Below, piece after piece: positions 19,967-48,134 of a DNA stretch of 64,000 bases. The notes below the pieces were generated by a model, which had not been told where the DNA came from, searched no databases, and worked only from the letters and a program-made list of their open reading frames with translations. The position numbers and the translations under genes were made by a program. This stretch comes from Leptolyngbya sp. FACHB-8 (GTDB taxonomy: Bacteria > Cyanobacteriota > Cyanobacteriia > Elainellales > Elainellaceae). Where the stretch lies: positions 1 to 64,000 of the forward strand of contig NZ_JACJOO010000087.1 in assembly GCF_014695575.1 (NCBI RefSeq). Direction: 5' to 3'. The stretch's first letter is position 1. Every line of letters begins with the position of its first letter.

Positions 19967-22900
19967 TTAGGCGATCGCGAAATTACGACTTGTGAGTTGG
20001 CCCACTCGAACATTTTCCAAGGTTGCCAAAGTCACAAATGTGGTGCCAGCCCCAACACCATCCTGATCGATTTGTATACGGGTAGAGGTACCTGATGCCG
20101 ATAGCCGCACATAGCGGTCAAACCGGGCAAAGGGTGTACCCGTACGGAACGGAGTTGTACGGAACAACGGTGACAAATCAATGACATCCTGCCCTACCTG
20201 GAAGCCACGGATAATATCACCTTTTTCAGTCAGGCTGTTGTAACGGAAAGCATCGGTTCCCAATCCGCCTGTTAAGGTATCGGTTCCCAAACCACCGACG
20301 AGAATATCGTTACCATCTCCGCCATTCAATAGGTCATTTCCAGCATCCCCCTGAAGCAGATCATTTCCAGCATCGCCTGAGAGCTGATCGTTACCTACTC
20401 TGGCAAGCAGTCGATCGTTGCCGGCTCCACCGAAGATTACATCTGAACCAATCTCACCATTTAGAAGGTCATTGCCCTCTAATCCTCGGATTGTATCGTT
20501 ACCCCCTGCTCCAGAAAGAGTGTCATTCGCCCGCGTACCCAGGATGGTTTCATTACCTGACTTTCCCGTGAAACGGCGACCTACAGACCCTCCAGAGAAA
20601 TTGATGTTGGCAGGAGCCAAGGCCATTGTGCCTCGCTTCCAGGAAACGGCCGCTCCTGTAGCCAAAAGATTGCCTGCCAAATCGGCAATACCAGAGCTTG
20701 TTGCCAGAATACTGAGCGTGTACGAACCATCCAGAGTGGTTAGACCTGTCAGATTGCTCAGGGTATAGCTTGTCTGGCTGCTGTTAGCAGTTAAGGTTGC
20801 TCCTGCCAGGTTAAGGGCGACTCCATTACGAGTGAGAGATACATCTGCAATGTCAACCCCTGTCACCGATTCATTGAATGTAAAGCTCAGGCTGCTGGTT
20901 GCAACATTGTCGCGCCCATCTTGTACAACCGGGGAAACAGCTACCACACTAACTGTAGGAGCGGTCGTATCGATAAGAATGCCACTGGTATTCGGGCTTC
21001 CAGGAAGTGTCAGGACGGCATTATGATTTGATGCGTCCTGAAGGGTTGCGCCATTCAGATTAAGGGTGTCCAGGGTGATGCCATCAGTATCTGAATCTGT
21101 ACTGGCTACGGTGTAACGGAAGACCAGTTGCTTAGTACCTGTACCTGAAACGTAGACAGCATTGGCTAGCCCGCTATTCAAGTTCAGTCCTAACGATGGG
21201 ATACCGTTATCAGTATTGACATTCACCACTTCACTGAAATTGAGCGTAAAATCAAGAGCCTGATCGGCCCGGTAACGGCCTGCATTCGGTGCTTCCACCA
21301 ATAAGATACTGGGTTCATCAGATCCAATTAGAATACCGCTTGTGGAAGGAATTCCATTTAAAGCCAGAGACGCGTTATTGCCGTTCGCATCACGGATGGT
21401 ACTTCCATCCAATACAAGGGCTGTACCCAAAACAATACCATCACTATCTAAATCACCTTCAGCCACGGTGTAGCGGAACAGTAATGTGTTGCTACCGTTT
21501 CCGGAGATGTAGGTTGCGTTGACGGCACGGTTTGCCAGAATCAGGGAAAGTTTCGGTGTTCCGTTGCTCGTATTCAGCGTTACGGCTTCTGAAAAGGTAA
21601 TGGTAAAGTTCAGGTTTTGCCCCACCTGATAAATGTTATTAGCGGGTAAGGCAACACCCGTAACGCTAGGAGCTATACCATCGATTTGAATACCCGCAGT
21701 GGTTCCCAAAGGGGGGAACGTGAGAGGGCTATTGGTGTTTGCGCTATCACGAACTGTGGCATTACCGGTTAACTCCAGGCTAGTTCCTACGGTAATACCA
21801 TTAGTGTCTAACTGGCCGTTGCTGACGGTGTACCGGAAGGTATGTCTGGTCGCCGATGTACCATCTCCTACGAGCGTAGCGTAGACAACCTCACCACTAT
21901 CGAGAGTAATGGGAATACGAACGCTCCCACCACCTAAGTTAATGGTGACTGCTTTTGAAAAGGTAACGGTAAAGTCCAGGTTTTCCCCGATGGTATAGGT
22001 GCGATCGCCTGGCAAACTCACACTATCAATGCCGAGCCTGTCCAACAGTTGGTAAAGTTCTACATCACCATTGGTATCTGTAGCTTGAAAGAATAGGTTG
22101 TCGTTGACAACTGTAAATCCCTTTGGAGAAGAACTGGCAGATTGATTGATATCAATTTTGACTGGGTTGTTATTCGTATCTAAGTAATACAGTTCGGTGT
22201 CGCCATCAACTGTTGCTTGAAAGAATAACTTACCGTTGAAGCTTGTTAGGAATTTAGGTGTAGAACTTCCTGTTGCACTGATATCAAGTTTAACGGGTGT
22301 ATTGTCTGGCCTTAAGTAATACAGTTCTATATCCCCGTTATCATCCGTACCCTGAAAGAATAGCCGACCTTCTACATTCGCCAAATATTGAGGAAAAGAA
22401 CTGCCTGTAGGATTGATATCAATCTTGGTGGGAACTTTGTTGGCGTCTAAATAATAAAGTTCATAATCGCCTGTCGTGTCAACAGCCTGGAAAAATAGAG
22501 TGCCATTAACGTTAGTCAAGAACTGGGGAAAAGAGCTACCACTCTGGTTAATGCCAATTGCGACTGGGTTGTTGGAACTATCAAGGTAATACAACTCATA
22601 ATCATTATTGACGTTTGCTGAGAAATATAAAGTGTTATTGACATTGACGAAAGAGGTGGGAAATGAGCTACCTGCAGGATTGATATCAATTTCTACAGGG
22701 GTACCATTAGCGTTTAAATACCAAAGCTCATAGTCTTCATTTTCATTCACGTCAGTCGCTTGAAAAAATAAGGTGCCGTTATAGTTAAACAGCTGGTTTG
22801 GATAAGAGCTACCTGTTAAGTTGGCGTCAATCTTGATGGGGCTCTTATTTTCGTCTAGATAGTAAAGTTCCCAATCACGAGTGACACCAACACCACTAAA

Positions 22901-23128
22901 AAATACCGCGTCATTAATACTTACAAAGGAACGAGCATAGGAACTACCGATAGGGTTCACATCAATCTTTACAGGAGTATTGGTGCTGTCCAAATAATAC
23001 AATTCATAATCTTCTACACCATTAACAGTATCTACAGCTCCAAAGAAAAGAGTACCGTTAGCACTTGCCAAATAGCTTGGAAAGGAACTGCCGTTTCCAA
23101 CAACATCAATCTTTTGCAACTCAATGAC
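19967..23128 (-). CDS. Large RTX calcium-binding repeat protein
   Basis: About 1053 residues. Eight repeats of about 45 residues come first (core GTLFFQA..ELYYLD..N.PVKIDIN..GSS), a variant of the ELWxxDGT repeat in which W is mostly Y. Three Ig-like modules of about 118 residues follow (LDFTVTFSKAVT..FRYTV..GI), then a fourth diverged one ending AVSWKRGT. Next come about nine RTX nonapeptides (GGAGNDRL, GDAGNDLL) that bind Ca2+, and a C-terminal RTX-type tail that acts as a type I secretion signal. It should be exported by an ABC/TolC system; none is encoded here. I start at ATG 23128, with an AG-rich ribosome site; an in-frame ATG at 23179 adds 17 residues without one. Adhesion or surface-layer roles are possible but unproven. 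Confidence 0.88.
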   Translation of the reverse strand, partial: VIELQKIDVVGNGSSFPSYLASANGTLFFGAVDTVNGVEDYELYYLDSTNTPVKIDVNPIGSSYARSFVSINDAVFFSGVGVTRDWELYYLDENKSPIKIDANLTGSSYPNQLFNYNGTLFFQATDVNENEDYELWYLNANGTPVEIDINPAGSSFPTSFVNVNNTLYFSANVNNDYELYYLDSSNNPVAIGINQSGSSFPQFLTNVNGTLFFQAVDTTGDYELYYLDANKVPTKIDINPTGSSFPQYLANVEGRLFFQGTDDNGDIELYYLRPDNTPVKLDISATGSSTPKFLTSFNGKLFFQATVDGDTELYYLDTNNNPVKIDINQSASSSPKGFTVVNDNLFFQATDTNGDVELYQLLDRLGIDSVSLPGDRTYTIGENLDFTVTFSKAVTINLGGGSVRIPITLDSGEVVYATLVGDGTSATRHTFRYTVSNGQLDTNGITVGTSLELTGNATVRDSANTNSPLTFPPLGTTAGIQIDGIAPSVTGVALPANNIYQVGQNLNFTITFSEAVTLNTSNGTPKLSLILANRAVNATYISGNGSNTLLFRYTVAEGDLDSDGIVLGTALVLDGSTIRDANGNNASLALNGIPSTSGILIGSDEPSILLVEAPNAGRYRADQALDFTLNFSEVVNVNTDNGIPSLGLNLNSGLANAVYVSGTGTKQLVFRYTVASTDSDTDGITLDTLNLNGATLQDASNHNAVLTLPGSPNTSGILIDTTAPTVSVVAVSPVVQDGRDNVATSSLSFTFNESVTGVDIADVSLTRNGVALNLAGATLTANSSQTSYTLSNLTGLTTLDGSYTLSILATSSGIADLAGNLLATGAAVSWKRGTMALAPANINFSGGSVGRRFTGKSGNETILGTRANDTLSGAGGNDTIRGLEGNDLLNGEIGSDVIFGGAGNDRLLARVGNDQLSGDAGNDLLQGDAGNDLLNGGDGNDILVGGLGTDTLTGGLGTDAFRYNSLTEKGDIIRGFQVGQDVIDLSPLFRTTPFRTGTPFARFDRYVRLSASGTSTRIQIDQDGVGAGTTFVTLATLENVRVGQLTSRNFAIA

Positions 23129-24041
23129 CATTTCTCTAGCCTTCAAAATTTTTCTTGAGGAAATTTCAAAACAACGCATGAACCATCTTGAAGGGCCGGA
23201 TAATCGGGTTATGCTGCTCTTAAGTGTCTATACAGATGTTTTCAGGTGCTGCTATGAAGTAAAACCCATGAGTTACCTACGTACCCATAGTTTATCTATG
23301 TAAACCCCCTTAGGTCGTTCTTTAATGTAAGAATTCACAAGTACTTTGTAATATGTTTCTTTAATCTAAAGAACGAGTAAAAAGCTTCCCTGAAGCCCCT
23401 AAAACTGCAAGAATTCCGGTACTAATTTCTCGAAAATACTTTAATAAAACTTTTCCGTGTATTTACATAAGCCCGTTTTATGTCAGTCCTAAATAACTTG
23501 TAAGATGGGTTTTGAGAAGTGGAGTCGGTGCAGATCAATCTATCTCTCAAAACCTTTTGAAATTGCTATATTTCCGATCACTGGATGCAACAGGAACAGT
23601 CCTGATTTGCTCAGATTTTGTATGTAAAGTCAGTATTACAGTGGTCTAAAATTTATTTTGGAGAGCTATAAAACTCATGATTTAACTCGTAAAAATACTG
23701 AAAGTTTGTATTTTTCTATTTCATTTTAAGGTTGAGAAACGTGGCATGGCTCATATCTTACATCTGTTCATAGACAGTCCCAACAATCTGGTAGGACATA
23801 CATCTCATTTCATAGCTCTATAGCGATGTGCAAGTGCGTTAAGTACAGCAACGGTGGTGTGGGGCACTTCGTGCCCCACACCACCGTACTTAATCAACGT
23901 GCACAGCGCTATATTCAGCAACGGAGAAAATTGAGTTTTAGAGATGGTGTTTTTCGGGGAGTAATTTCTGCCCGAGTTAATGCTGGTGTTCCAGATGTGT
24001 GAAGGAACACTTTATGCCCCGTCACACTCCATCCACATATT
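23129..24041. other. Non-coding region between RTX gene and family B element
   Basis: About 680 bp of AT-rich sequence upstream of the RTX gene without an open frame or recognisable RNA, then a family D element inserted in a family E half-hairpin (23801-23924). The RTX promoter should lie in the first 200 bp, but I cannot place -35/-10 boxes with confidence. A decayed relative of the 1457-1512 hairpin is visible near 23994-24036. Confidence 0.45.
23819..23913. repeat. Family D palindromic element, copy 2, nested in family E
   Basis: A 95-bp element from TATAGCGATG to CAGCGCTATA. Its core is a perfect hairpin, CGGTGGTGTGGGGCAC-ttc-GTGCCCCACACCACCG. It is the inverse of the copy at 39591-39685 and has the same length. 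The left flank ACATCTCATTTCATAGCTC and right flank TTCAGCAACG join into a family E sequence (compare 19767-19797), so D appears to have inserted into E. Confidence 0.82.
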
Positions 24042-24962: not shown

Positions 24963-25079
24963 AACTGTCTTTCCTGCCCATTCACTGATGAGTTGCCTGA
25001 AATGGTGCGATCGCAACCCCACTTTGAGTGAATCGCCTTTGCTAGAAAAAACACACTGCCTCAAGCATTAATTCACTTA

Positions 25080-25201
25080 ACCTCAGTTCGGGATAAGCTG
25101 AAGTGCCCATTTTGGCGTGCGCAAAGCACACGCCAAAATGAGCGTTTTCGAGTGCCGCGCAGCGCGCGGCACTCGAAAATGCCCTTAACCCGAACTCAGG
25201 T
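25080..25201. repeat. Family A three-way element, complete copy with target duplication
   Basis: 122 bp from ACCTCAGTTCGGG to CCCGAACTCAGGT. Arm 1 is 25108-25140 (15 bp with one wobble) and arm 2 is 25142-25182 (19 bp with one wobble). The direct repeat TCACTTA lies at 25073-25079 and 25202-25208. It is the same length as the copy at 49948. It sits between the ZIP start and the HMG-CoA reductase gene. Confidence 0.88.
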
Positions 25202-25388
25202 TCACTTAGGGCCTACAAATTTTGGTTTTGTTATGGGCAGATACTTTGTGAACTTGTGCAAAGCGCCTGCTGTCAAACCCTAGGTACAGTGTTCAGTTTG
25301 AGGAATTGGTACCTGACCCGACCGTATTTCAGTTTGAAGGGAATACCTTAGACATATCTCCTCTCAAACTTTTGTCCTACGCTCGGTT

Positions 25389-26672
25389 ATGTCTACTCAC
25401 TACCGTCAGGCTGCCCATTATTTAGATGAATTGCTGAAAGTTGGTAACTTTGAGCAACTCGAAGAACGTTTGCAACCCCGAGTTGCAGAAGTCACATCCC
25501 GAATACCCGGGGGGGCTCGCATGACTCCCGAGGCGATCGCTAAGCGTTGGCAGGTTTTGAATGCATCAGCGGAGGTGCAGGGGGCGATCGCTGACCCCAT
25601 CACGATTGGCCACATGGACTGCTATCGCCGCCATATTGAAAATTTCATTGGCACCGTCAAAATCCCTGTTGGTATTGCAGGGCCTTTGCAGGTAAATGGG
25701 CTCTATGCGCAGGGGAGTTATTACATTCCTCTCGCTACAACGGAAGCAGCGTTGGTGGCTTCCTACAATCGAGGGGCGCAACTGATGACAGCAGCAGGCG
25801 GTTGCTCGTCGCTGTTACTGACAGAAGGGGTGACCCGTGCGCCAGGCTTTGCGTTTCGCAGCTTATCAGAAGCCGGGAAGTTTATGATGTGGGCGATCGC
25901 CCAACAACCTACCTTTAAGCAAATTGCTGAGTCCACTACCCGCCACGGCGAACTGGTCGATATACGTTTGACGGTGGAAGGCAACCACGTTTACCTGGAA
26001 TTCCAGTTCACCACGGGTGATGCGGCCGGGCAAAATATGGTGACGATCGCCACGGAAGCCATCTGTCATTACATCCATGAAAATACTCCCATTCAACCCC
26101 AATACAGCTTTGTAGAGGCCAATTTATCTGGAGATAAGAAGGCCAGTGCCCAATCATTCCTATCGGTGCGGGGCAAAAAGGTAACGGCAGAGGTGTTGTT
26201 GCCTGGAGCCCTGGTGGAGAAGCACCTGCATACGACGCCTCGGGCGATGGAAAATTATTGGCGGATGTCAGCGATCGGTGGTACTCTTACAGGCACCATT
26301 GGGGTGCAGGGGCACTACGCCAACGGTCTGGCGGCGTTGTATCTGGCCTGTGGTCAAGATGTGGCCTGTGTGGCGGAGTCGGCAATTGGGGTGACTCGGT
26401 TTGAGGTAACGGCAGCCGACGACCTGTATGCCTGTGTAACCGTGCCTAATTTGATTGTGGGAACGGTTGGCGGTGGCACCAGTCTTCCCAGCCAACAGGC
26501 TTGTTTACAATTGATGGGCCTGGCAGGTAGTGGTCATGCCCGCGCCTTTGCAGAAGTGTGTGCAGGCTTGTTGCTGGCTGGGGAACTGTCCATTATTGGT
26601 GCGCTGGCTTCGGGAGAGTTTACCCGAGCCCACCAACGGTTAGCCCGTGGACGTGAGCCTGAACAGGAATAG
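25389..26672 (+). CDS. Class I 3-hydroxy-3-methylglutaryl-CoA reductase
   Basis: A 427-residue protein that should reduce HMG-CoA to mevalonate with NADPH. The four catalytic residues of class I enzymes are all present: E84 in ENFIGTVKIPVG, K250 in SGDKK, D324 in CGQDVA and H415 in FTRAHQ. The nucleotide and substrate loops TTEAALVAS, GDAAGQNM and GTVGGGT are also seen. There are no membrane helices, as in prokaryotic forms. This is unusual, since cyanobacteria are expected to make isoprenoids by the MEP route and no other mevalonate gene is in the window. A UbiA-type prenyltransferase (40 bp downstream) and a dikinase follow in the same direction, so a dedicated isoprenoid-linked product is likely. 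Confidence 0.93.
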   Translation: MSTHYRQAAHYLDELLKVGNFEQLEERLQPRVAEVTSRIPGGARMTPEAIAKRWQVLNASAEVQGAIADPITIGHMDCYRRHIENFIGTVKIPVGIAGPLQVNGLYAQGSYYIPLATTEAALVASYNRGAQLMTAAGGCSSLLLTEGVTRAPGFAFRSLSEAGKFMMWAIAQQPTFKQIAESTTRHGELVDIRLTVEGNHVYLEFQFTTGDAAGQNMVTIATEAICHYIHENTPIQPQYSFVEANLSGDKKASAQSFLSVRGKKVTAEVLLPGALVEKHLHTTPRAMENYWRMSAIGGTLTGTIGVQGHYANGLAALYLACGQDVACVAESAIGVTRFEVTAADDLYACVTVPNLIVGTVGGGTSLPSQQACLQLMGLAGSGHARAFAEVCAGLLLAGELSIIGALASGEFTRAHQRLARGREPEQE

Positions 26673-26711
26673 GCATATAAAAAGTATTACATTGCAGGAT
26701 TGACTGCTCCT

Positions 26712-27632
26712 ATGGCTGAGTCGTCACGCTGGTGGATTTATTTACAAGAGCGATTTCCACCTTTCAAAAATGGATTATTAATTGCGGTGTTTGCAGCTTC
26801 AGCGGTTGGGTATACCGCGTTGCTTTTACCGAGCTCTAACACGTCTTTTTCTCTTACAAGCTCTATCCTGATTGCGTTTGTCGTTCTATTTCTATTCTTT
26901 TTTCAATTACGGGTTTGCGATGAGTTTAAAGATTATGCCGATGATCTACGGTATCGTCCTTATCGTGCAGTACCTCGGGGTTTGGTGAGTTTACAGGAAT
27001 TGGGGGTGGCGGCGATCGCTGCAGCGGTCATCCAGTTTGGTTTCGCGATAACGTTGGGGCGATCGCTCGTATTTCTGCTGCTCCTGGTGTGGGGCTACAT
27101 GCTGCTCATGCGGCAAGAGTTTTTTGTCCCGCACTGGTTGAAAGTACATCCGGTCATCTACATGCTGTCACACATGGTCATTATGCCCTTGATGGCGTTG
27201 TTCGCCAGTGCGTGCTATTGGGTGCCGGACAAAATTACACCGTCGTTAGCGTTGGGTGGTTTTTGGGCAGTCAGCTTTTTTAATGGATTGGTAATTGAGC
27301 TGGGCCGAAAAATCCGTGCGCCCCAGGATGAGGAAAAGGGAGTCGAGACTTATACGGCCTTGTGGGGAAGGTCTGCGGCGGTATTGGCATGGTTGGGGGC
27401 GATGGCAGGAATGGCGATCGCCACTCTAGGAGCTGCCTGGCCCATTCAAGAACTACCGTTGGTGGCATTGGCTTTGTTGTTCTTGTTAACGGCAGCGATG
27501 GTCGTGAGTTGGCGGTTTTTGAGTTACCCCGTGAAGGCCTGGGCAAAGGGATTTGAGCTGCTTGCAGGGGTGGGGACGTTAGTCGTGTATGCCGGTTTGG
27601 GAATCGTCCCCTGGGTGTTGAGCGTTCGATAA
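26712..27632 (+). CDS. UbiA family prenyltransferase
   Basis: About 306 residues with eight or nine membrane helices. The first Asp-rich motif is DEFKDYADDLRYRP (near residue 70), with RAVPRGLVS behind it. The second region, ELGRKIRAPQDEEKGVETY, is near residue 200. These bind the prenyl diphosphate through Mg2+. The DEFKDY form and the RYRPYRAVPRGL stretch place it in the UbiA superfamily but not in a subgroup I can name. The acceptor is unknown. I start at ATG 26712 rather than at the TTG four codons upstream. It lies between HMG-CoA reductase and a dikinase, so it probably uses isoprenoid made or diverted by that operon. Confidence 0.85.
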   Translation: MAESSRWWIYLQERFPPFKNGLLIAVFAASAVGYTALLLPSSNTSFSLTSSILIAFVVLFLFFFQLRVCDEFKDYADDLRYRPYRAVPRGLVSLQELGVAAIAAAVIQFGFAITLGRSLVFLLLLVWGYMLLMRQEFFVPHWLKVHPVIYMLSHMVIMPLMALFASACYWVPDKITPSLALGGFWAVSFFNGLVIELGRKIRAPQDEEKGVETYTALWGRSAAVLAWLGAMAGMAIATLGAAWPIQELPLVALALLFLLTAAMVVSWRFLSYPVKAWAKGFELLAGVGTLVVYAGLGIVPWVLSVR

Positions 27633-27665
27633 TGCTCGTTTGCTGAACTCTATCTTTTAAGTTGA

Positions 27666-30278
27666 ATGGGTATGAAAAATACTATCCCGGGTCTTGATTC
27701 TTCAGCATTGATACTTTCGTCTCATCAAGCTTCTGAGGCATTATCCCAATTGGGAGGAAAAGCCCGATCGCTCGCCCTTCTTTCCCAAGCAAACTTGCCT
27801 ATTCCTGAATGGTTTGTTGTCACAACAGCAGCGTTTGAAGCGTGTTTAACAGAGGCACAAGTATGGGGGCAGGGCGATCGCTCTAAAGTACCGGCTCAGG
27901 TAAATTGGCCCGTAGCGATACGGGCAGAGTTGGTAGGAGCATTGGGGCACTTATGCCCCAATGGGGAATTAGTGGCGGTACGTTCATCTGCTCTAGATGA
28001 GGATGGATTGGCTCATTCCTTTGCTGGGCAATTGGAGAGTTTCCTAAACGTTGAGCTGGAGGATGTGCCGGAGAAAATTGTGGAGGTGTGGCGTTCGGGG
28101 TTTAGCGATCGCCTTCTAGCCTACCGACTGGAGCATGGTTTATCAGAGGTACCACAACCTCCCGCAGTGCTGGTACAGCGGATGGTACAGGCCGAGTGCG
28201 CCGGGGTAGCGTTTAGTGCAGATCCGGTGACGGGACGGCGAGGGGTGGCGCTGGTGTCGGCAGTGCGTGGTCTGGGGGATGCTCTGGTGTCCGGGGAGGC
28301 TGATGCGGAAACCTGGCAGGTGAGCCGTGATGGAGAAATTCTTTCCCATCAGGCATTAGTGGATGAGCGGGTGTTGACAGCAGAGCAAGCCCAGGCGATC
28401 GCAGCCCTTGCCCGTCATACGGCCCAGCATTTTGGCCGTCCTCAGGATGTTGAGTGGGCGATTGATGGCAGCGGTCAACTCTGGCTCCTGCAGTCACGCC
28501 CGATCACGACCCTGGCACAGATGGCAGATCCGGATGGCCCACTCCAAATTTGGGATAACAGCAATATTGCCGAGAGCTACGGCGGTATTACGACGCCACT
28601 GACATTTTCTTTTGCTCGTCGTGCCTATGAAGCGGTATACCGCGAATTTTGCCGACTGATGCGGGTGCCTGAGGGAGCGATCGCCCGTCATGACACCACG
28701 TTTCGTTGTATGTTGGGCCTGGTGCGGGGTCGCATCTATTACAACCTGTTGAATTGGTACCGAGTTTTGGCGCTGCTCCCTGGCTTCCGGGTGAATCGGC
28801 GGTTTATGGAGCAGATGATGGGGGTGCGGGAGGAACTTCCGGCAGATGTGTTGCGATCGCTCGAATCCAGCACTTTCCGCGACAAAGTACAGGACAGCAT
28901 ACGGCTCCTCAACACCTTGATGGGTCTGGTGAGCAATTATCGTACTCTACCCCGCCAGATTCAGCAGTTCTACCACCGCCTAAACGACGCCCTGGAGCTA
29001 CCCCCCAACACCCTTGCCCAATGGCGTCTGGATGAATTAATTGCCTACTACCAGACCCTTGAACAAAAGCTCCTCACCCGCTGGGATGCACCTCTGGTGA
29101 ATGACTTTTTCGCCATGATTTTCTACGGTGTGCTGCGAAAGCTAACGGTTGCCTGGTGTGGCGATACAGCAGGTACCCTACAGAATGACTTGGTGAGCGG
29201 CGAAGGCGGTATGATTAGCGCCGAGCCCGCCCAACGGGTGCGCCAAATGGCAGATCTGGCCGCCCTTCATCCCAACTTTGTCGAAACTCTGCTGTGTGGC
29301 TCCCAATTCCAAATTGAGCAAGCCATGACAACTCTACCCGGCTTCCAATCAGCCTATAAGGAATATCTGGAGAAATTTGGCGATCGCTGTCTGGAGGAAC
29401 TCAAACTCGAAAGCCCTACCCTCCACGACGATCCCCTCATGCTTCTCCGTTCTATCGGCCACCTGGCCCGCCATACCTCTCACTCCTCTGCGCCCCTGCG
29501 CCCTCGTCCCCCTGTCTCCCTCCGCGAACAAGCTGAAATTCTCGTTCATCAACATCTGCGCTCCCGCCCCCTCCGACGACGCCTTTTTAATTGGGTGTTG
29601 CGAAATGCTCGGGATCGGGTGCGCGATCGCGAAAACCTTCGGTTCGAGCGCACCCGAGTGTTTGGTCGCGTTCGCCGTATCTTTGTAGAAATAGGTCAGC
29701 GTCTCTTCGCCCTGGATGTCCTTGATCACCCCCGCGACATCTTCTACCTCAACCTGGAGGAAATTCTCGGCTACAACGACGGTACTGCCACCTGCACCGA
29801 CCTGAAGGGGATGGTCGCCCTCCGCAAAGCCGAGTTTGACCGTTATCATCAAATGCCATCAGCGGGCGATCGCTTTACGACCTACGGCCCCGTTCACCCG
29901 CTGCCCCTGACCCCGTTCACTCAGCCAACCAGCCAGCCAGCTACCTCCTCACTTACTTACCAGGGCCTCGGCTGTTGCCCCGGTATTGTTCGTGCTCCTG
30001 TTCAGGTCATCACCGATCCTAAAAATGCGGTGCTACAACCCGGCCGTATTCTGGTCGCCGAACGAACGGATCCGGGCTGGATTCTGCTGTTTCCTGGAGC
30101 AGCTGGGTTGCTGGTAGAGCGAGGTAGCCTATTGTCACACTCGGCTATTGTGTCTCGGGAAATGGGAATTCCGGCGATCGTATCGATTCCTGGTTTGATC
30201 CAATGGCTGAAGGATGGAGATTGGGTTGAGATGGATGGCAGCACAGGGCACATTAAACGGATTGATGAGCCTGCTTAA
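27666..30278 (+). CDS. PEP-synthase / rifampin-phosphotransferase-like dikinase
   Basis: 870 residues in three parts. Residues 1-290 form an ATP-grasp PPDK/PEP-synthase domain (GGKARSLALL, AVRSSALDEDG, SFAGQLESFLNV, CAGVAFSADPVTG, QDVEWAIDGSGQLWLLQSRP). Residues 300-760 are a helical substrate domain (starts WDNSNIAESYGGITTPLTF). Residues 770-865 are a swivelling domain with the phospho-accepting histidine in SLLSHSAIVSREMGIPAIV. The PEP-binding barrel of true PEP synthase is absent. This order is that of rifampin phosphotransferase, which moves the beta-phosphate of ATP onto a small molecule. Here the acceptor could be an isoprenoid or other alcohol, given the neighbours; that is inference. 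Confidence 0.85.
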   Translation: MGMKNTIPGLDSSALILSSHQASEALSQLGGKARSLALLSQANLPIPEWFVVTTAAFEACLTEAQVWGQGDRSKVPAQVNWPVAIRAELVGALGHLCPNGELVAVRSSALDEDGLAHSFAGQLESFLNVELEDVPEKIVEVWRSGFSDRLLAYRLEHGLSEVPQPPAVLVQRMVQAECAGVAFSADPVTGRRGVALVSAVRGLGDALVSGEADAETWQVSRDGEILSHQALVDERVLTAEQAQAIAALARHTAQHFGRPQDVEWAIDGSGQLWLLQSRPITTLAQMADPDGPLQIWDNSNIAESYGGITTPLTFSFARRAYEAVYREFCRLMRVPEGAIARHDTTFRCMLGLVRGRIYYNLLNWYRVLALLPGFRVNRRFMEQMMGVREELPADVLRSLESSTFRDKVQDSIRLLNTLMGLVSNYRTLPRQIQQFYHRLNDALELPPNTLAQWRLDELIAYYQTLEQKLLTRWDAPLVNDFFAMIFYGVLRKLTVAWCGDTAGTLQNDLVSGEGGMISAEPAQRVRQMADLAALHPNFVETLLCGSQFQIEQAMTTLPGFQSAYKEYLEKFGDRCLEELKLESPTLHDDPLMLLRSIGHLARHTSHSSAPLRPRPPVSLREQAEILVHQHLRSRPLRRRLFNWVLRNARDRVRDRENLRFERTRVFGRVRRIFVEIGQRLFALDVLDHPRDIFYLNLEEILGYNDGTATCTDLKGMVALRKAEFDRYHQMPSAGDRFTTYGPVHPLPLTPFTQPTSQPATSSLTYQGLGCCPGIVRAPVQVITDPKNAVLQPGRILVAERTDPGWILLFPGAAGLLVERGSLLSHSAIVSREMGIPAIVSIPGLIQWLKDGDWVEMDGSTGHIKRIDEPA

Positions 30279-30582: not shown

Positions 30583-30703
30583 GGCTTCGGGTTAAGGGCT
30601 TTTTCGAGTGCCGCGCGAAGCGCGGCACTCGAAAAAGCCCATTATTGCGTGCGCGTCGCGCACGCAATAATGGGCGGTTCGGCTTATCTCGAACTGACGT
30701 TAA
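30583..30703. repeat. Family A element, inverted copy
   Basis: This copy lies in the opposite orientation to that at 25080. Arm GGGCTTTTTCGAGTGCCGCGC (30596-30616) pairs perfectly with 30620-30640 around GAA. The second arm, 30638-30654 with 30658-30674, is perfect around GTC. The outer arms are diverged (TTCGGGTTAAG and CTTATCTCGAA). I see no clear target duplication. Confidence 0.8.
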
Positions 30704-47467: not shown

Positions 47468-47540
<73 letters not shown>

Positions 47541-47557
47541 TTTTTTAATAACAAGCG

Positions 47558-47583
47558 AACTGCACCGCTATAGCGGTGCAGTT
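47558..47583 (+). terminator. Terminator of tRNA-Val copy 1
   Basis: AACTGCACCGCTATAGCGGTGCAGTT is a perfect 26-bp palindrome followed by TCTTTCT, 18 bp past the tRNA. A related stem with the same CACCGC core follows copy 2. Confidence 0.75.
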
Positions 47584-47621
47584 TCTTTCTGGGTTCCAAC
47601 CACAATTTTCACAATGAGCTT

Positions 47622-47644
47622 TATTCCAAAATGAGAATTGCTGT
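47622..47644. repeat. Remnant of a family B end
   Basis: ATTCCAAAATGAGAATTGCTG is the right end of a family B element without the rest. The full copy 4 begins at the next base, and the last nine bases (AATTGCTGT) form its target duplication. Confidence 0.75.
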
Positions 47645-47776
47645 CAGCAATTCTCAGTATGGGCATCAAAGCCAAGAGTTCACGCCCTACGGGCGTGAAC
47701 TCTTGGCTTTGATGCCCGAAAACCGCGCGCCGAAGGCGCGCGGTTTTCGGGCCTAATTTCAAAATGAGAATTGCTG
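47645..47776. repeat. Family B two-armed element, copy 4, with 9-bp target duplication
   Basis: 132 bp. Arm 1 is a 27-bp perfect stem (47661-47687 with 47691-47717, TAC loop), arm 2 a 17-bp perfect stem (47715-47731 with 47735-47751, GAA loop). AATTGCTGT lies at 47636-47644 and 47777-47785. It separates tRNA-Val copies 1 and 2 and was inserted in an older family B end. Confidence 0.92.
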
Positions 47777-47853
47777 AATTGCTGTATTTTTTGTTTGCAG
47801 TGTTGCGATCATCTGCTACATTAATAAATCGTGCTCCGGATGAAGCGGAACGC

Positions 47854-47926
<73 letters not shown>

Positions 47927-47937
47927 TTCATTTCATA

Positions 47938-47977
47938 AAACATAAATTGCACCGCTACTGCGGTGCAATTTATGTTT
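47938..47977 (+). terminator. Terminator of tRNA-Val copy 2
   Basis: 18-bp perfect stem AAACATAAATTGCACCGC with its complement, TACT loop, then TTTCAACC. It shares TGCACCGCTA with the terminator of copy 1. Confidence 0.75.
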
Positions 47978-48061
47978 CAACCTTTTTTTGGCATTTTTTG
48001 CACATAAAAGTCGCGATTATCTGCTACATTAGTAAATCGTGCTCCGGATAAAGCGGAACGC

Positions 48062-48134
<73 letters not shown>

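Follow-up and report, generated by a model that had tools for sequence, protein, structure and literature searches.

Leptolyngbya sp. FACHB-8 encodes three adjacent genes within the 64,000-nucleotide stretch analysed here (positions 1 to 64,000 of contig NZ_JACJOO010000087.1, assembly GCF_014695575.1; hereafter the window): a reductase with the fold of 3-hydroxy-3-methylglutaryl-coenzyme A (HMG-CoA) reductase (HMGR), a UbiA-superfamily membrane transferase, and a phosphoenolpyruvate (PEP)-synthase-like dikinase. Judged from its residues, the reductase is very likely a fatty acyl-CoA reductase of the FcrA type and not an HMGR, and it likely acts within a lipid pathway of seven genes. The set comprises FcrA, UbiA, the dikinase, a DUF3419 (BtaA-like) transferase, a phytol-kinase-like membrane protein (C3), a GNAT protein and an AMP-ligase, and it is highly probable that the seven form a single pathway. 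The three genes of the window, first recognised in an initial annotation from the DNA alone, are genuine and complete. Their open reading frames (ORFs) and Pfam matches agree, all three lie on the same strand, and the gaps between them are 27 and 33 bases.

25389..26672, + strand: reductase of the HMGR fold, probably of the FcrA type, 427 aa (ORF, Pfam, residue comparison, FcrA signature from PMC11948995)
25743-25745, + strand: codon of reductase catalytic residue E119 (residue comparison)
26136-26138, + strand: codon of reductase catalytic residue K250 (residue comparison)
26358-26360, + strand: codon of reductase catalytic residue D324 (residue comparison)
26631-26633, + strand: codon of reductase catalytic residue H415 (residue comparison)
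26115-26117, + strand: reductase specificity residue E243 (FcrA signature position)
26265-26267, + strand: reductase specificity residue M293 (FcrA signature position)
26619-26621, + strand: reductase specificity residue F411 (FcrA signature position)
26700..27632, + strand: UbiA-superfamily membrane transferase, 310 aa (Pfam PF01040, family alignment)
27666..30278, + strand: PEP-synthase-like dikinase, 870 aa (Pfam, NCBIfam, PDB alignment to rifampin phosphotransferase, family alignment)

Fold and substrate pocket of the reductase

The initial annotation described the first gene as a complete class I HMGR with the catalytic residues E84, K250, D324 and H415. The fold is borne out by a Pfam HMG-CoA_red match (E 2e-114), but the function is not: the enzyme scores 341.3 bits, below the NCBI equivalog cut-off of 441.8 for HMG_CoA_R_NADP, and HMG-binding residues are replaced. 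K250, D324 and H415 are correctly placed, whereas E84 aligns with human Glu528 of the ENVIG (ENxIG dimerisation) motif. The equivalents of Glu559, Lys691, Asp767 and His866 (human numbering, used throughout) are E119, K250, D324 and H415, and those of Arg590, Asp690, Lys692 and Asn755 are also kept. The AlphaFold2 model of the reductase, built from 15 sequences, was poor (predicted local distance difference test, pLDDT, 49.5) and was set aside.

The pocket was compared between 33 rows of the reductase's clade (32 distinct sequences from cyanobacteria and Verrucomicrobiota) and 22 canonical rows, which comprise the human enzyme, one archaeal enzyme and Verrucomicrobiota enzymes. Wherever the sequence extends far enough, every clade and canonical row keeps the four catalytic residues. 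At position 684, 22 of 22 canonical rows have Ser and all clade rows have Glu (E243 in the window); at position 735, 22 of 22 canonical rows have Lys, which the clade replaces with Met, Val, Ile or Phe (M293). At position 862 the Leu of the canonical rows is Phe (F411) in 32 of the 33 clade rows; the remaining row is a fragment ending short of this position. Lys735 of HMGR forms a salt bridge with the HMG carboxylate (PMC9500038). In a tree of these enzymes the clade is monophyletic and is set apart from canonical HMGR at 100/100 support.

The HMGR-related fatty acyl-CoA reductase FcrA, described by Grossi et al. (2025, ISME J, PMC11948995), is told apart from HMGR by changes at these three positions. 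In assays, FcrA reduced fatty acyl-CoA but not HMG-CoA, and a statin did not inhibit it. Its pocket changes are Ser684 to Glu, replacement of a conserved Lys, and Leu862 to a bulky residue (PMC11948995). The replaced lysine is printed there as Lys795; the paper's own numbering, with Glu360 = 684, Lys367 = 691 and Gly411 = 735, makes it Lys735. The window enzyme carries all three changes as E243, M293 and F411. It also shares with FcrA the HMGR fold, the catalytic Glu, Lys, Asp and His, a bulky aromatic residue at 862, and occurrence in genomes without a mevalonate pathway. Bacteria with an FcrA homologue that lack canonical HMGR also lack the mevalonate pathway (PMC11948995). The reductase is therefore very probably a misnamed member of an already known enzyme class, as far as its residues can tell. 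It differs from archaeal FcrA in having Phe and not Trp at 862, and at 427 aa it is too short to hold the N-terminal Lad domain. Unlike FcrA as published, it sits in a cassette with UbiA, dikinase and DUF3419 genes. The main text of PMC11948995 is silent on UbiA and on the cassette, and mentions cyanobacteria solely through the title of one of its references.

Absence of a mevalonate pathway

The initial annotation took the gene for a mevalonate-forming enzyme and proposed that it serves either a partial mevalonate route or a compound that uses mevalonate directly. In that reading a true HMGR would draw HMG-CoA from leucine breakdown and pass mevalonate into a natural product or a partial route. 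The window enzyme does resemble class I HMGR (human 1DQ8, archaeal 6HR7 and the Verrucomicrobiota paralogues) in its fold, the ENxIG dimerisation motif, the NADPH loop and the full complement of catalytic residues, including the Arg590, Asp690, Lys692 and Asn755 equivalents. However, the Lys735 equivalent is hydrophobic and the Ser684 equivalent acidic across the whole clade, the score falls under the equivalog cut-off, and the gene lies outside any mevalonate operon.

The genomes also argue against it. HMG-CoA synthase was detected in 0 of 18 carrier genomes, that of the window included, and diphosphomevalonate decarboxylase in 0 of 19 genomes (the 18 carriers and G018); both searches detected the mevalonate-organism controls. 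Among the cyanobacterial carriers, the mevalonate-kinase model gave only GHMP matches that fall short of its 163-bit cut-off (G000, for example, reaches 96 bits), and such matches are equally seen in ordinary bacteria. The earlier observation that neither the synthase nor the decarboxylase lies in the window thus extends to the entire genome, and a full mevalonate pathway encoded elsewhere in it, for which a genome search had been advised, was not found and is rejected.

Several Verrucomicrobiota genomes (G403, G447, G551, G406 and others) hold both kinds of reductase. The canonical Verrucomicrobiota HMGR adjoins HMG-CoA synthase and type 2 isopentenyl diphosphate isomerase in G394, and the isomerase in G403 and G447. 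The Glu684 kind is located in the cassette in most Verrucomicrobiota genomes examined. With a separate canonical enzyme kept in a true mevalonate operon, and with the pocket Lys and Ser684 lost clade-wide, a mevalonate-forming role is very unlikely and the proposals built on it are not supported.

Stand-alone relatives of the reductase occur in Vibrio and Photobacterium (loci L215, L216 and L217; 11965-13236 of the locus and equivalents) and share 57-59% identity with the window enzyme. They have Asp, Met and Phe at positions 684, 735 and 862, are annotated as 'hydroxymethylglutaryl-CoA reductase', and by these residues are probably not HMG-CoA reductases either. The database name is probably wrong for the cyanobacterial and Verrucomicrobia proteins, and for those of Vibrio as well. 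Since the gene probably does not encode HMGR, mevalonate-pathway calls made from it alone are likely wrong in these groups.

Composition and arrangement of the seven-gene set

In most cyanobacterial carriers, as in the Verrucomicrobiota metagenome-assembled genome loci L017 and L018, the genes run reductase, UbiA, dikinase, so that the three-gene order, whose conservation the initial annotation had left to be checked, is kept in both groups. Fuller loci add the genes for DUF3419 (BtaA family), C3 (a membrane protein of ~480 aa), GNAT and an AMP-ligase of the OleC/fatty-acid-ligase type. The seven-gene cluster is found, in the same or shuffled order, in several Verrucomicrobiota genomes and on a plasmid of the alphaproteobacterium Roseinatronobacter sp. 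S2, with the reductase running across the origin of the record. In G138, from another cyanobacterial family, all seven families share one locus; there GNAT and AMP-ligase occupy a single 903-codon open frame (L045:10592-13300), possibly a gene fusion. In the genome of the window the first three genes lie side by side, and other contigs hold at least three of the remaining four: C3 on contig C48 (99743-101113), DUF3419 on contig C19 (9471-10562), and AMP-ligase on contig C69 (25865-27424). An anti-phage defence role was dropped, as PADLOC gave no match.

The UbiA protein matches PF01040 with 39.7 bits (E 4.6e-10, cut-off 34.2). Its first motif is intact (D74-x3-D78-x3-D82), and in the second the first Asp is replaced (K204-x-R-x-P-x-D/E-E-E in the family alignment). 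Members scoring above 410 bits are confined to genomes that have either the reductase or the remaining cassette genes. Neither the UbiA nor the DUF3419 profile found a match among solved structures.

The dikinase matches PPDK_N (E 2.2e-55) and PEP-utilizers (E 4e-23). It consists of an ATP-grasp domain (PPDK_N), a long middle region and a swivelling-His domain with the invariant H825, and the PEP/pyruvate barrel is absent. This layout is shared with rifampin phosphotransferase RPH and with PigC/RedH. In contrast to these, the cassette dikinase scores 263-295 bits, far under the curated NCBIfam cut-offs of 999-1350, and reaches no named family. Its frame is broken in L022 and L026 (genomes G034 and G032), by assembly error or gene decay.

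The N-terminal half of C3 is homologous (hhalign 99.3%) to a standalone cyanobacterial protein that we take, from recognition of its motifs and with no tool match, to be of the phytol-kinase type. The C-terminal half was considered as a DUF92/phytyl-phosphate kinase, but it gives only weak Pfam matches (E 0.0004 to 0.02), which found no confirmation in a profile comparison. An AlphaFold2 model of C3 (pLDDT 71.5) matched nothing in the PDB.

The fourth cassette gene resembles BtaA of betaine lipid synthesis in encoding a full-length DUF3419 protein. Unlike BtaA systems, the cassette has no recognised BtaB-type N-methyltransferase and has a GNAT protein instead. The Myxococcales ElbD ether-lipid locus, as cited in PMC11948995, likewise combines an acyl ligase with a fatty acyl-CoA reductase to give the fatty alcohol of an ether lipid. 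By that outline, ElbD differs in being a single multidomain protein with a reductase of another family, and in lacking UbiA, dikinase and DUF3419.

Co-occurrence, distribution and origin

Co-occurrence was counted in 60 relatives, of which 14 carry the reductase and 46 do not. Full-length C3 is present in 12 of the 14 carriers against 2 of the 46 non-carriers, DUF3419 and the dikinase each in 12/14 against 1/46, and AMP-ligase in 11/14 against 2/46. Fisher p values are 8e-10 to 7e-8 over the 60 relatives and 9e-7 to 4e-5 within the family; the tests ignore shared ancestry and therefore overstate independence. Even so, the co-inheritance of unlinked cassette genes is striking. The carriers with an incomplete set are fragmented assemblies (G024, G026 and G028).

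The functional link of UbiA and dikinase to the reductase, which the initial annotation suspected, is thereby upheld, with the order kept across two phyla and the genes co-inherited even if scattered. Conserved order and co-inheritance make a specialised, lipid-like product likely. An isoprenoid link of this product, as first suggested, is conceivable because UbiA and a phytol-kinase-like protein belong to the set. The same evidence bears on whether the reductase supplies fatty alcohols for wax esters, with UbiA and dikinase as unrelated neighbours. Haloarchaea and some bacteria do use FcrA for wax esters, and a role in ether lipids is possible (PMC11948995). Yet UbiA, dikinase, DUF3419, C3 and ligase are co-inherited or ordered with the reductase across phyla, and no wax synthase was recognised among the neighbours labelled or scanned, the genomes not having been searched for one. 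Wax-ester supply is thus extremely unlikely.

Among the 390 genomes sampled from the class, 16 contain a member of the reductase clade; 14 of these belong to one family and the others are G084 and G138. Most cyanobacterial reductases form a clade beside the Chthoniobacteraceae sequence L017, within the diversity of Verrucomicrobiota, and this nesting suggests that the cyanobacterial gene was acquired by transfer from Verrucomicrobiota. The G138 reductase branches separately on a long branch.

Proposed pathway and its alternatives

The fold, the catalytic and specificity residues, the missing mevalonate genes, the gene order and the co-occurrence were observed directly, and the following steps are inferred from them. 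The AMP-ligase would activate a fatty acid, and FcrA would reduce the long-chain acyl-CoA to a fatty alcohol with two NADPH, via a bound hemithioacetal and aldehyde, as its precedent suggests. The phytol-kinase-like C3, perhaps with the dikinase, would phosphorylate the fatty alcohol (or a prenol), and UbiA would then move the chain onto an acceptor and form an ether. The DUF3419/BtaA-like protein may add a 3-amino-3-carboxypropyl group from S-adenosylmethionine, and the GNAT protein may acylate its amine. These steps would yield an ether lipid, alkyl or prenyl, with an amino-acid head group. Their exact order is doubtful.

Several points weigh against this proposal. UbiA normally requires an allylic diphosphate, and a saturated alkyl chain would be an unusual donor. 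The assignment of the reductase to the FcrA clade relies on signature residues, the tree holding no assayed FcrA sequence. In Vibrio a close relative of the enzyme occurs by itself, and the reductase can therefore function outside the cassette. Moreover, G018, a 99% complete genome, has the other six families while the reductase was undetected. In its locus L076 (G018:C2:54000-73900), UbiA, dikinase, DUF3419, C3 and GNAT are clustered, and the ligase is elsewhere.

UbiA with a saturated alkyl donor is the weakest step; the chief alternative is a prenyl donor. The phytol-kinase-like protein would then make the prenyl diphosphate of UbiA from phytol or geranylgeraniol, and the fatty alcohol would form a second chain of a prenyl-linked compound. 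It is established that enzymes of the UbiA family use prenyl diphosphates, and the homology of the C3 N-terminal half to the phytol-kinase-type protein fits the same scheme. However, Verrucomicrobiota share the cassette and chlorophyll-derived phytol is not expected there, the second UbiA motif is altered, and the likeness of the C3 C-terminal half to DUF92 is weak. The altered motif does not discriminate between alkyl and prenyl donors. The prenyl-linked compound is plausible, though short of probable.

The reductase might instead act on a thioester peculiar to the pathway, neither HMG-CoA nor free fatty acyl-CoA, such as a prenylated or amino-acid-bearing acyl-CoA from the cassette's AMP-ligase. 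The cassette owns a ligase of suitable type, the other families are closely tied to the reductase, and at 862 the Phe takes up less room than the Trp found in archaeal FcrA. Against this, the specificity positions closely match those of the fatty acyl-CoA enzyme, and the 25 kb examined for the stand-alone Vibrio relative, with Asp/Met/Phe, contain no cassette gene. Such a substrate is quite unlikely, and a long-chain fatty acyl-CoA is preferred.

A search of the open-access literature, subscription papers being outside its scope, gave no description of a DUF3419 and UbiA cluster or of an HMGR and UbiA cluster in cyanobacteria. By their titles and abstracts, the open-access papers on DUF3419 concern other subjects. 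The seven-gene pathway appears to be undescribed in the literature searched, and the conserved set points to a lipid that is apparently undescribed as well. The fullest form of the proposal is an undescribed ether-lipid pathway in which an HMGR-fold enzyme makes a fatty alcohol, a phytol-kinase-like enzyme and a dikinase phosphorylate it, a UbiA-fold enzyme transfers this non-prenyl donor, and a BtaA-like enzyme adds an amino-acid head group, with the cassette shared horizontally among Verrucomicrobiota, cyanobacteria and alphaproteobacteria. This form is rather unlikely. As a single operon of ~9-10 kb, in Verrucomicrobiota and on the plasmid of the cultured alphaproteobacterium, it offers a ready test set for the conserved genes.

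Surroundings of the three-gene unit

A divergent ZIP-like gene lies upstream of the three genes and an opposite-strand gene downstream, so the three form an isolated unit. The sequence on its 5' side is as follows.

25065..25388, strand not applicable: intergenic stretch 5' of the three-gene unit, with a large palindromic repeat (about 25100-25215)

Large palindromic hairpin repeats flank the unit at 25100-25215 and 30637-30675 of the window and look like mobile palindromic repeat elements; the former is nested in longer imperfect inverted repeats. Elsewhere in the window, a 1070-aa protein with C-terminal RTX-like GGxGxD repeats is encoded at 19967-23179 (- strand), and three tRNA-Val(TAC) genes are closely spaced at 47468-48134.

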